From an uncultured Clostridia bacterium (GTDB taxonomy: Bacteria > Bacillota > Clostridia > Christensenellales > CAG-314): a stretch of DNA of 46,682 nt. Shown one piece after another: positions 5,231-33,781 of this stretch. The notes under the pieces were generated by a model that saw only the letters and a program-made list of their open reading frames with translations, was not told where the DNA came from and ran no database searches. The position numbers and the translations under genes were made by a program. Location of the stretch: assembly GCA_947629985.1 (NCBI GenBank), contig CANRFV010000011.1, positions 1-46,682 of the forward strand, in the 5' to 3' direction. How positions within the stretch are numbered: the first letter of the stretch is position 1; every line of letters starts with the position of its first letter.

Positions 5231-6580
5231 ATGCTTAGAGTAAACGATATTGTGGAATACACCGCCGAAAACTACTCCAATGCGGAAACGGTTGGGCATG
5301 CGGACGGTTACAGCGTGTTTGTACCGTTTGTAGCCGTGGGCGAACGTGCCCTTGTGCGGATAACTTACGTAAAAGGCAGCGTGGCGTACGGCGAAGTTGT
5401 GCGCCTGTTGCAAGTTTCGCCGCACAGAGTAAACGCGCCTTGCAAATATTTCGGCAAATGCGGCGGTTGCTCTCTTATGCATCTCGATTACGCCGAGCAG
5501 TTGCGCTTCAAGCGCGACAAAGTGGCGGCAAACCTTGCCAAAATAGGCAAGATCCAAGCCGAAGTGTTGCCTTGCATAGGCTCGGACAAAACCGTCGGGT
5601 ATCGCAACAAACTCAGTTTGCCCGTACGCGGCGTGCGCGGAAACGTTCGCGTGGGTATGTACAAGCGCAACTCGCACCAAGTAATACAAACAAACGGCTG
5701 TTTGCTGGGCGGAGACTGGGCAAATTTGTTGGTAAGCGATTTTGTGCGGTATTGCAATTCGCTTGGCGTCGCGCCTTACAACGAGCGTGATTTTACGGGC
5801 GACGTGCGGCACTTGGTTGCGCGTTTTGTAGACGGGCAGTTGTTGGTTACCGTGGTAAGCAACGGCAAGTTCGGCTACGATTTCGCTCCGTTTGCCGAGT
5901 TGCTGAGCAAACATTTTGACCGATTTGGGCTGTTTGTAAATATAAACACGTTGCGCAACAACGTTATTATGGGCGACGAAACGCAACACGTGTGCGGGCT
6001 TGAATATATCGAAAGCGAACACTTGGGGGTAAAATTCCGCTTGCAACCCGCAAGTTTCTTTCAGGTAAACGACGGCGTAAAAAACGCAATTTACACAAAG
6101 GTGCGCCAATTGCTCGATCTTGCCCAAACGGAAGTTTTGGTGGACTGCTTTTCGGGGATAGGCGTGCTTACGGCGGTGCTTGCAAGCGACCGCTACGACG
6201 CCTACGCCATCGAAATAGAGCCGTCGGCAACGTACGACGCTGACCAAATGGCGCAACTTAACGGATTGACGCGCATTACAAATATTTGCGGCGACGTAAC
6301 CGAGCAACTTCCCCGCGTTATAGCAGCCAACCGCGGCAAATGTCTGTGCGTAACGGTAGATCCGCCGCGCAAAGGTTTGGGCGACAAGATATGCCGAACC
6401 TTGTTGGACGCACGTCCCGACGCCATTGTGTACATTTCGTGCGATTCCGCAACGTTGGCGCGCGACTTGAACATGCTTCAATGCGACTACGACGTAACCT
6501 ACATTCAACCTTACGATATGTTTCCCCAAACCGACCAAGTGGAGACGGTCGCGAGTCTGAACAGACGTCAACGAGACTGA
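5231..6580 (+). CDS. RlmCD/TrmA-family 23S rRNA (uracil-5-)-methyltransferase
   Basis: A 449-residue SAM-dependent RNA m5U methyltransferase of the RumA/TrmA family. An N-terminal TRAM-like domain (about 1-65) is followed by an Fe-S cysteine cluster (CKYFGKCGGC, about 71-80). Next come the FFQVND motif, the SAM-binding D-C-F-S-G-I-G block, DPPRKGL, and the catalytic Cys of YISCDSATLARDL. The family's usual ending, DMFPQT..VE.V, is present, so the C-terminus is close to native. The last 65 bases of the gene are the founding unit of the tandem array that follows at once. Which uracil is modified (rlmC, rlmD or both) cannot be decided here, so no symbol is given. Confidence 0.9.
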   Translation: MLRVNDIVEYTAENYSNAETVGHADGYSVFVPFVAVGERALVRITYVKGSVAYGEVVRLLQVSPHRVNAPCKYFGKCGGCSLMHLDYAEQLRFKRDKVAANLAKIGKIQAEVLPCIGSDKTVGYRNKLSLPVRGVRGNVRVGMYKRNSHQVIQTNGCLLGGDWANLLVSDFVRYCNSLGVAPYNERDFTGDVRHLVARFVDGQLLVTVVSNGKFGYDFAPFAELLSKHFDRFGLFVNINTLRNNVIMGDETQHVCGLEYIESEHLGVKFRLQPASFFQVNDGVKNAIYTKVRQLLDLAQTEVLVDCFSGIGVLTAVLASDRYDAYAIEIEPSATYDADQMAQLNGLTRITNICGDVTEQLPRVIAANRGKCLCVTVDPPRKGLGDKICRTLLDARPDAIVYISCDSATLARDLNMLQCDYDVTYIQPYDMFPQTDQVETVASLNRRQRD

Positions 6581-7161
6581 GCGCCGCTTTTGCTTGCAAA
6601 ACAGCGGGCAGAAAAGTCGAGTTGCCAAGCACGCAGAGCGTGGTGTTAGCGCCGTCGGAACGGAAGACGAGTTACGCTCTCGGCGCGAGAGAGAACATAT
6701 ATGTACATATATGTTTCCCCAAACCGACCAAGTGGAGACGGTCGCGAGTCTGAACAGACGTCAACGAGACTGAGCGCCGCTTTTGCTTGCAAAACAGCGG
6801 GCAGAAAAGTCGAGTTGCCAAGCACGCAGAGCGTGGTGTTAGCGCCGTCGGAACGGAAGACGAGTTACGCTCTCGGCGCGAGAGAGAACATAAATGTACA
6901 TATATGTTTCCCCAAACCGACCAAGTGGAGACGGTCGCGTGTCTGAACAGACGTCAACGAGACTGAACGCCGCTTTTGCTTGCAAAACAGCGGCAGTAAA
7001 GTCGAGTTGTCAAGCACGCAGAGCGTGGTGGAAGCGCCGGAGGAACGGAAGACGAGTTGCGCTCTCGGCGCGAGAGAAAACATATATGTACATATATGTC
7101 CAAACCGACCAAGTGGAGACGGTCGCGAGTCTGAACAGACGTCAACGAGACTGAATGCCGC
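6516..7161. repeat. 193-bp tandem repeat array seeded by the methyltransferase 3' end
   Basis: Three full units begin at 6516, 6709 and 6902 (periods 193, 193 and 192), and a partial fourth runs from 7094 to about 7161. Each unit starts with the last 65 bases of the methyltransferase gene, including its stop codon, so it re-encodes the final 20 residues behind an ATG. About 128 further bases follow, with several small inverted repeats: GTCTG/CAGAC, CACGC/GCGTG, TCTCG/CGAGA. At each junction lies the double palindrome ACATATATGT twice. Units 1 and 2 are nearly identical and unit 3 is slightly diverged, which points to recent amplification. No recombinase gene is near. 7162-7283 holds the leader of galE. 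Confidence 0.9.
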
Positions 7162-7283
7162 GCACAAAATTTATTCGCACCGTATTATCGCAATAAATAT
7201 GTTGCAAAATTATACACAGCCTTACAAACGCGCGCTTTGCGGCGCAGCGGTAAGTAAAACAGGTAAATTTAACGGAGGTAAAC

Positions 7284-24327: not shown

Positions 24328-24414
24328 TCCGACCATACGCGTGCGGACTTGGTTGACGGCGGCGTACGCCTTGCAACCTTGCACTTTGTGCGCTTACGCG
24401 TCCGCACGGTCGGA
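24328..24414. repeat. Long imperfect inverted repeat after the redox operon
   Basis: TCCGACC (24328-24334) plus GTGCGGAC (24341-24348) pairs with GTCCGCAC plus GGTCGGA (24400-24414), with a 6-base bulge on the left strand. A perfect GGCGTACGCC palindrome lies inside (24361-24370). It starts one base after the stop codon. It may be a processing or stabilising structure or a mobile-element scar. Confidence 0.6.
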
Positions 24415-24422
24415 CTAACAAG

Positions 24423-24450
24423 GAAGCAACTGCCCGTTGCTTCTTTTTTT
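24423..24450 (+). terminator. Rho-independent terminator of the redox operon
   Basis: An 8-bp perfect stem, GAAGCAAC with GTTGCTTC, has a 5-base loop and is followed by seven T. Confidence 0.92.
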
Positions 24451-24451
24451 A

Positions 24452-24534
24452 GACCTTCGCCGGGGTGAACATCCCCGGCATCCCCCGTTAGGGCGCAAAC
24501 TTCGGCGCAGGTCCGTAGTTTGCGGTAGTTTAAT
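24452..24534. repeat. 83-bp dispersed repeat R1 (R1a right half plus R1b)
   Basis: Identical base for base to 33618-33700. It folds into two hairpins: GCCGGGG/CCCCGGC and CGCAAACT/AGTTTGCG. Diverged parts occur at 41-90 and 438-466. It directly follows the T-run of the operon terminator. Confidence 0.9.
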
Positions 24535-24610
24535 CGGAACAACTATTGATTTGATTTAGTTGATGTATTAACTATTTAGTTTAATGCATAACGTAATTTC
24601 AACAAATAAA

Positions 24611-24642
24611 TGTATGCCGCACCTTGTTAGGTGTGGCATACA
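24611..24642. repeat. Isolated long hairpin
   Basis: A 13-pair stem (TGTATGCCGCACC with GGTGTGGCATACA) has one G-T wobble and a 6-base loop. It is placed just before the R3 fragment at 24644-24678. No T-run follows on either strand. Confidence 0.7.
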
Positions 24643-24667
24643 CGTTGCAGATTATTTTGCAGTGGAT

Positions 24668-25062
24668 ACACTCGCTCCGAGTGTTTGCTGCGCAAACAGT
24701 TCAACATTGCCCTTGGGCAAATATTTTTCCGTCTGCGACGGAAAAGTGAGATTCGCCTACGGCGAGTGTTATTTTTCCGCCGTGGGCGGAAAAGTGTTAT
24801 TTTGCCTGACGGCAAAGTTAAGGTTGACATTATTTGAAAATAAATATTGCCGAAAGATATTCTCCTTCGGCAATTATATTTTTTATTGCATAAGCTGTTC
24901 AAATAAACAACGCCACAACTATTCGCGACAGCGAATAATCTCACTTACGCGCCTGCGCGTAAATATCACTATTCGCGACAGCGAATACTATCACTTTGCC
25001 GTTGGCAAAAATTGCCAAACGGAAAAATCTCACTTTTTCGCCGCAGGCGAAAAATAACACTT
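24668..25062. repeat. Array of about twelve short hairpins joined by a conserved linker
   Basis: A chain of short perfect inverted repeats with 2-4 base loops, for example at 24669-24683, 24683-24697, 24707-24720, 24725-24745, 24753-24765, 24773-24793 and 24801-24816 (left arm), then 24921-24936, 24945-24962, 24971-24986, 24995-25009 and 25034-25054 (right arm). Stem sequences differ, yet linkers are alike: AGTGAGATT or AGTGTTATT in the left arm, and the reverse complements AATCTCACT, ATATCACT, AATAACACT in the right arm. A longer hairpin (24846-24874) lies at the centre. The two arms are thus opposite in orientation. No gene lies inside. Function unknown. Confidence 0.9.
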
Positions 25063-25089
25063 TTCAGTTATGTTTATATATGTTATAAT
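25061..25089 (+). promoter_or_regulatory. Promoter of the esterase-dtd-sdaA operon
   Basis: TTTTCA at 25061-25066 and TATAAT at 25084-25089 have a 17-base spacer, with an extended-10 TG at 25081-25082. The -35 box overlaps the last linker of the hairpin array, so the array ends exactly at this promoter. Confidence 0.7.
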
Positions 25090-33484: not shown

Positions 33485-33781
33485 GTTAGCCGACCACTCG
33501 TGCGTCGGTCGATTGCTTGCTGCTGCGCTAACGCGAGCGCAATCGACACGCAGTGCGCTATCGCGCCGACGCAGTCGGACTTGGGAGTTGCGCGTGAACG
33601 CACGCGCGGCATATTCCGACCTTCGCCGGGGTGAACATCCCCGGCATCCCCCGTTAGGGCGCAAACTTCGGCGCAGGTCCGTAGTTTGCGGTAGTTTAAT
33701 TAAAACTGCCCGCTAAGGCGGGTTGTACTATGTCGGGTTTAATTGAAATTTCCGACCAAGCGCGAGTGCAATCGACGGCAT
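33485..33781. repeat. Composite repeat element with R1a and R1b inside
   Basis: No gene. It starts with GC-rich inverted repeats (TCGATTGC near 33510 with GCAATCGA near 33551), then carries R1a (33580-33658) and the exact 83-bp R1 copy (33618-33700). It ends with another GCAATCGACGGC near 33768-33779. GTCGATTGC at the left and GCAATCGAC at the right are inverted, so they could be terminal repeats of a non-coding mobile element. No transposase is present. Confidence 0.6.

Follow-up and report, generated by a model that had tools for sequence, protein, structure and literature searches.

Two-armed hairpin arrays with a conserved linker in uncultured Clostridia and their association with 23S rRNA intervening-sequence proteins

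The hairpin array at positions 24682-25061 of the window (the whole stretch of 46,682 nucleotides analyzed here, from an uncultured Clostridia bacterium) is a single copy of a dispersed repeat made of two hairpin arms in inverted orientation. Similarly built elements, with two inverted arms, a linker of the form AGTG-NN-ATT, and stems that are free to vary, occur sporadically in uncultured Clostridia. On balance, the window array is probably a non-autonomous copy of a structure-dependent mobile class whose linker would be recognized by a cognate protein of family PF05635, the 23S rRNA intervening-sequence protein (IVP), with both binding and transposition inferred. IVP-linked hairpin-array elements are a class proposed here.

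Table 1. Components of the window array and the repeat adjoining it.
Feature	Position	Strand	Description
Composite repeat adjoining array	24395..24665	+	Other hairpins and other linkers; also dispersed
Left arm	24682..24816	+	Hairpins 24682-24698, 24707-24720, 24725-24745, 24753-24765, 24773-24793, 24801-24816; plus-strand linkers between
Linker AGTGAGATT	24745..24753	+	Left arm
Linker AGTGTTATT	24765..24773	+	Left arm
Linker AGTGTTATT	24793..24801	+	Left arm
Core between arms, AGTTAAGG...CACAACT	24816..24919	+	Imperfect terminator-like hairpin 24846-24875, T-rich tail
Right arm	24920..25061	-	Hairpins 24920-24937, 24945-24962, 24970-24987, 25034-25054; nested double palindrome 24995-25025; minus-strand linker
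Linker AATCTCACT (AGTGAGATT on minus)	24937..24945	-	Right arm
Linker AATATCACT (AGTGATATT on minus)	24962..24970	-	Right arm
Linker AATCTCACT (AGTGAGATT on minus)	25026..25034	-	Right arm
Linker AATAACACT (AGTGTTATT on minus)	25053..25061	-	Right arm; right end of copy

The element lies between protein-coding reading frames. A preliminary description had reported about a dozen perfect short stems, and 12 (stem of at least 5, loop of 2-5) were found in 24660-25075, 11 in the arms and one in the core, against a background median of 2 per 416-base window (223 windows). It had also assigned the linker to the plus strand for the left arm and to the minus strand for the right one, which the linker coordinates of both arms bear out for the AGTG-NN-ATT form. 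The perfection described for the stems holds for these 12 but not for the right-arm nested double palindrome, which is imperfect, and the longer hairpin described in the middle is indeed present but is imperfect and terminator-like. No T-run follows the array hairpins, and the terminator-like hairpin lies in the core. The array folds strongly both as RNA (z -13.2) and as DNA (z -12.6), with 0 of 100 shuffles equaling either value, and the whole window has no Rfam match at gathering score, in agreement with the early impression that the array fits no known riboswitch pattern. In 435 kb of the genome, a hairpin starts at the last T in 68 of 121 AGTGNNATT sites, compared to 0/41, 2/35, 0/6, and 0/6 in shuffled controls (two shuffles each of contig C2 and the window). 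Arm-to-arm pairing of linkers is not favored as the cause of linker conservation, because the NN positions of the two arms mismatch in register in the window.

The adjoining composite repeat has 26 local matches, itself included, in the 435-kb sample of the genome (the window together with 388 kb from contigs C2 and C3), and has been seen to the left of several other array copies; it may be a separate family. A piece of it recurs at window positions 33618-33700. Elsewhere in the window, positions 6400-7200 hold a tandem repeat, about three full units plus a partial one, that is rich in short palindromes and in which the unit begins with the apparent 3' end of the preceding coding gene.

The genome of the window (G000; 2.37 Mb in 157 contigs, assembly 93% complete) contains many similar copies of the array, each beside different genes, and a DNA search scored 16 distinct places from 104 candidates. 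In the 435-kb sample the core alone has 12 matches of 77-100% identity, self included. The copies, several of which share the left arm of the window with its stems exchanged, retain the core and the linkers; the hairpins are swapped and vary in number. When seven further 3-kb loci of the genome are added to the sample, a perfect terminal stem of at least 4 is found in 88 of 98 inter-linker segments, 26 of which are distinct, and the 26 distinct inter-linker hairpins have 16 distinct 5' arms. By the same search, only one of 24 congeneric genomes (G022) has a match, which is weak, as does one of 16 other genomes of the order, also weakly. The 24 congeners measure 1.2-1.7 Mb, compared to the 2.37 Mb of the window genome, and repeat expansion may contribute to the difference. 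With copies across the genome and the order, the array belongs to a dispersed family and is not the local low-complexity region that the preliminary description had offered as the alternative. The same description had the array ending exactly at the promoter of an esterase operon; since the structure is one of many copies, its end at this putative promoter looks incidental. In G006, where the closest homologue of the esterase within the genus was found (58% identical), the homologue is preceded by a coding gene and lacks an array. This upstream context differs from that in the window, and no clean empty site was found for a window-type copy.

A pattern of three successive linkers was found in 27 of 396 genomes of the order, spread over 22 of 142 genera, and any match to the reversed control pattern in 2 of 396; the check that the linker be more common than chance in related genomes thus came out in favor of the array. 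Judged by eye, 21 of the 27 are hairpin arrays; the six omitted are five with non-hairpin repeats (G122, G203, G229, G315, and G359) and one borderline case (G230). For example, L030 (G315) and L044 (G203) are minisatellites with AGTG-NN-ATT at 12-base spacing and no hairpins, which mimic the linker pattern. In reference genomes, a strict AGTGATATT pattern was found in at least 116 stretches. Except for L245 and L264, which are absent from the hairpin listing of these stretches, the source titles of those listed name metagenome-assembled genomes of Clostridia, Clostridiales, Oscillospiraceae, Ruminococcus, or Bacillota, and many titles point to ruminant guts. A recurring layout has three hairpins with AGTGATATT, a center N-TATTCGCC, hairpins with AATATCACT, and a longer hairpin. 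In one 1.2-Mb genome (G399), pattern matches were grouped into 19 places, 16 of which contain this canonical element with differing stems. At L240 (4300-4710) a block of four hairpins stands in tandem four times, so that arrays can also grow via block duplication. Carriage by phages was rejected, with true hairpins only in L060 among at least 120 stretches of a virus collection that match a loose pattern. Two arrays 1.4-2.3 kb apart were likewise rejected as the ends of an autonomous element; the frames between those of L205 look like ordinary genes, and L183, the other locus with paired arrays, was read at both arrays only.

When the proteins encoded next to arrays were compared, one of about 120 residues was found at six loci. 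It is an Avd-like four-helix-bundle protein of PF05635 (23S_rRNA_IVP; E 1.5e-28 and 6.2e-27 for the two tested), and it has a solved relative, 2rld (E 2e-30). IVP genes are present in 17 of the 21 array-positive genomes and in 11 of 30 array-negative genomes, the latter a hand-picked subset of 369 (Fisher p 0.0037). Arms stand on both sides of the IVP gene in L407, L408, and L412; those of L407 carry AGTGAGATT, as in the window, and the IVP gene of L408 sits at the position corresponding to the window core. The AGTG-NN-ATT linker type of the window thus also occurs in IVP-carrying elements. At L411 (G143), an IVP gene lies between two long tandem repeats in place of a simple hairpin array.

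The linkage also holds for IVP genes collected without regard to arrays. A search by protein family gave 62 IVP loci in the order, 51 with a full 420-base 5' flank, and at least four hairpins were found in 30 of these 51 flanks; of 166 control windows taken from these loci, 20 held as many (p 2e-11). Downstream flanks reach this number in 14 of 57 cases, and 21 of the 51 genes have fewer than four hairpins on the 5' side. An older count of 34/56 against 31/240 had included six array-found IVP loci; these are excluded here, and the two sets of counts came out much alike. The share of hairpin-dense 5' flanks is equal in array-positive (20/34) and array-negative (10/17) genomes, because some of the latter carry other linkers (G040, G107, G139, and G143). 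Linkers of arrays preceding other IVP genes of the order include ATGATATA, ATTACATA, GCGATAT, GCTTCAT, and TGAATT. No IVP match at E up to 1 was found in the 93% complete assembly of the window genome, nor was IVP detected in the array-bearing G052, G225, and G277. The window array has the two inverted arms and the fixed linker of the proposed class, but since its genome has no IVP match it is filed as a non-autonomous or relic relative and not as a full member. In the phylum, 34 of 199 genomes have IVP matches, and outside the order 3 of 22 IVP loci have at least four hairpins on the 5' side, no more than the control windows (10/112, p 0.82; 8 of 30 loci were dropped, their IVP not being found by the queries). 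The linkage is therefore a trait seen in the order, and it does not extend to PF05635 proteins in general.

The class of the linker tracks the phylogeny of the IVP, and it does so across host families. For 33 of the 62 family-search loci, linker classes were assigned by eye before any tree was built, and on the tree of these 33 IVPs the 12 classes require 12 changes where 11 is the least possible; shuffled labels need 24.6 on average, and none of 200 shuffles was as low as 12. The AGTGATATT/AGTTATATT class of six lies on one side of a branch (support 89/94). Among nine classes listed, four small ones (TGAATT, ATGATATA, GTGAAGT, and ACGATG) need two changes, and two of these four are no more clustered than in shuffles. 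Adding the six array-found loci gives 13 changes, with L210, where the array is 3' of the gene, falling outside its class. This tracking of the IVP lineage bears on the alternative that IVP genes and arrays are not one element and merely share insertion hot spots at the 3' ends of tRNAs or terminators, since such agreement is unexpected of chance neighbors; the arms that flank IVP genes on both sides at three loci also count against it. Both arrays and IVP genes do lie behind tRNAs at several loci, and IVP genes outside the order are not linked to arrays, so that shared hot spots retain some probability, although we consider them an unlikely explanation.

Arrays are biased toward the 3' ends of genes. 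As determined with a simple ORF finder, the right-hand neighbor has its 3' end toward the element in 63 of 87 cases and the left-hand neighbor in 45 of 89, and in a separate count, which excluded 28 more arrays at locus ends, 7 of 59 arrays are no more than 150 nt from a tRNA gene. In G022, an array directly follows the CCA of tRNA-Ser and its terminator, and in G009 the tRNA 3' end occurs twice, with a similar array behind the second copy. When the G022 tRNA plus array is used as the query, 19 of 25 genomes, including that of the window, give a match that stops at the 3' end of the tRNA; this comparison is suggestive of an empty site, with borders that are inexact. In L486 and L466 the intact tRNA-Ser is followed downstream by a second copy of its 3' end, of the kind that integrative elements leave, and in L486 a hairpin array follows that copy.

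This placement could also be expected of an immobile 3'-UTR structure or bidirectional terminator encoded by the host, at which transcripts arriving from either side would be ended or protected, an interpretation also consistent with the proximity of some arrays to tRNA genes, the terminator-like hairpin in the window core, and the strong RNA fold. Termination, however, needs no linkers of fixed sequence, and the sporadic presence of the arrays among close relatives, the many similar copies beside different genes, and the lack of a T-run after the array hairpins of the window make it improbable.

The stems of the arrays covary strongly. The alignment comprises the 43 elements, out of 102 distinct canonical elements, that fit a strict grammar, and the consensus structure was derived from the same alignment, with its last three pairs (one weak helix) dropped before counting. 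In the remaining 41 pairs in 6 helices, 97.7% of cells are paired, compared to 83.8% in shuffled controls, which relatedness of the elements inflates, and 32-59% in slid controls, which retain the relatedness yet favor a structure taken from the same alignment. With the same two controls, cells in which both sides have changed number 230, compared to 65 shuffled and 4-29 slid. The count of pair types is hardly above that of the shuffles (42 versus 38.5, with 50 of 500 shuffles reaching 42). The left-arm stems could each be extended by four pairs, two of them G-U, between TATT before and AGTG after. Distinct 5' arms number 17 for HP1 and 24 for HP2, while AGTGATATT occupies both inner left linker positions in all 43 elements, a constancy that is in part built in, since the elements had been located and trimmed with linker patterns. 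This bias is smaller for the IVP loci found by protein family alone, where one spacer recurs between the different hairpins of each array. A long-range pair, spotted before any consensus structure was computed, joins the first base of the center to its counterpart in the last linker across 107 alignment columns, and is complementary in 42 of 43 elements (A-T 16, C-G 14, T-A 12). Together with the linker enrichment, this covariation supports the early proposal of selection on structure or of a copying mechanism that makes hairpins.

Local covariation could also be produced by template switching, which, with slippage and tandem duplication, would keep palindromes perfect in a neutral, hairpin-prone sequence without any selection. 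Block duplication as at L240 fits such a neutral origin, as does the finding that swapped halves of distinct hairpins from the window genome still pair in 34 of 116 trials, so that stems share ends. Nevertheless, copies at unlinked places, the covariation of a long-range pair that encloses further hairpins, and the recurrence of one spacer between different hairpins at IVP loci found without the linker pattern leave neutral spread with a low probability, similar to that of the terminator.

A REP/BIME family moved by a Y1 (RAYT, IS200-like) transposase would explain short, inverted, intergenic hairpins in many copies, and the window genome has 4 Y1 matches, but this origin is very unlikely and Y1 was rejected as the mobilizer, being present in only 5 of the 21 array-positive genomes and commoner (19 of 30) in the array-negative among the 51 genomes of the order compared, and a REP family is marked by a hairpin sequence, where neighboring array stems differ and no hairpin foot in the window has GTAG or GTGG. 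An RVT_1 reverse transcriptase acting in trans was also rejected, with no association found (5 of the 21 array-positive genomes have one, as do 7 of the 30 array-negative).

Several known systems share features with these elements. MITEs and BOX elements are likewise non-autonomous, intergenic, modular, and hairpin-forming, but in the arms described here one linker joins stems that differ from each other, in place of a single terminal inverted repeat. As defined in passages of one source (PMC6006769), REPs, BIMEs, and REPINs are dispersed intergenic short hairpins with inverted pairing and a patchy distribution. The arrays share with them, and with their TnpA-REP (RAYT) systems, the dispersal in many intergenic copies, the inverted arrangement, the flanking of a linked gene by hairpins, and the patchiness; they differ in having conserved linkers and free stems and in their linked protein, a four-helix bundle in place of the Y1 HUH nuclease. 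The preliminary description, which had recognized no REP pattern, agrees with these results as to the stems, whose sequences are not conserved, and the missing Y1 association, even though the dispersed inverted intergenic copies do match REPs.

Another related system is the intervening sequence of 23S rRNA, described in part of one paper (PMC4990558) as a small structured element with a PF05635-type gene, called selfish, which lies inside the rRNA and is excised by RNase III. The same passages give the function of IVP (S23p) as unknown and the Xanthomonas protein as a pentameric ring of four-helix bundles. The arrays also are small structured elements associated with such a gene; in contrast to the intervening sequences, they are intergenic, behind genes or tRNAs, multi-hairpin and two-armed, with lineage-specific linkers, and the window element neither lies inside rRNA nor carries IVP. 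Excerpts of other papers note the resemblance of PF05635 to Avd of diversity-generating retroelements in sequence and structure (PMC10053308) and its occurrence in rRNA insertions (PMC11270868); the arrays, however, have no reverse transcriptase association. IVP genes are also reported in some cas loci in a passage of PMC3936711, and PF05635 is named in a legend on CRISPR-linked proteins (PMC10910872). The alternation of constant and variable parts recalls CRISPR as well, but here the variable parts are palindromes and not spacers, and the arms are inverted, in line with the initial judgment that no CRISPR pattern fits. Among the open-access full-text matches listed, none describes such arrays or a linkage of IVP to them.

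The IVP-linked mobile class, of which the window array is probably a non-autonomous member, has two inverted hairpin arms, with a linker fixed in each family and stems free to change as long as both sides change together. Related elements in the order carry one gene, that of the PF05635 (Avd-like) protein, either within the array or next to it, and the linker tends to be specific to the IVP lineage. The lineage's IVP, likely the reader of the linker in autonomous relatives, would recognize it at its regular positions between the hairpins of a folded RNA or single-stranded DNA, either of which may be the nucleic acid that is copied. Such a complex would let the element be copied to further intergenic sites, with a preference for those immediately past the 3' end of a gene or tRNA, and IVP may be needed for this movement. 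Copies without the gene, such as those in the window genome, would have been moved in trans or would be relics of such movement.

More tentatively, the PF05635 proteins of gut Clostridia may be linker-specific partners of multi-hairpin elements, which would form a mobile class that has no classical transposase, integrase, or reverse transcriptase itself, keeping a constant linker amid freely evolving hairpins and inserting behind terminators and tRNAs. If true, this would be the first function for a family that has for decades been recognized chiefly as what rRNA intervening sequences encode. The usual rule for repeats is inverted in these elements, with the sequence between palindromes conserved and the palindromes free. 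If the linker is an address read by the cognate IVP, then the function of IVP/S23p (Avd-like) proteins becomes directly testable by binding assays, and elements of this kind could account for many of the unannotated intergenic repeats of uncultured gut Clostridia.
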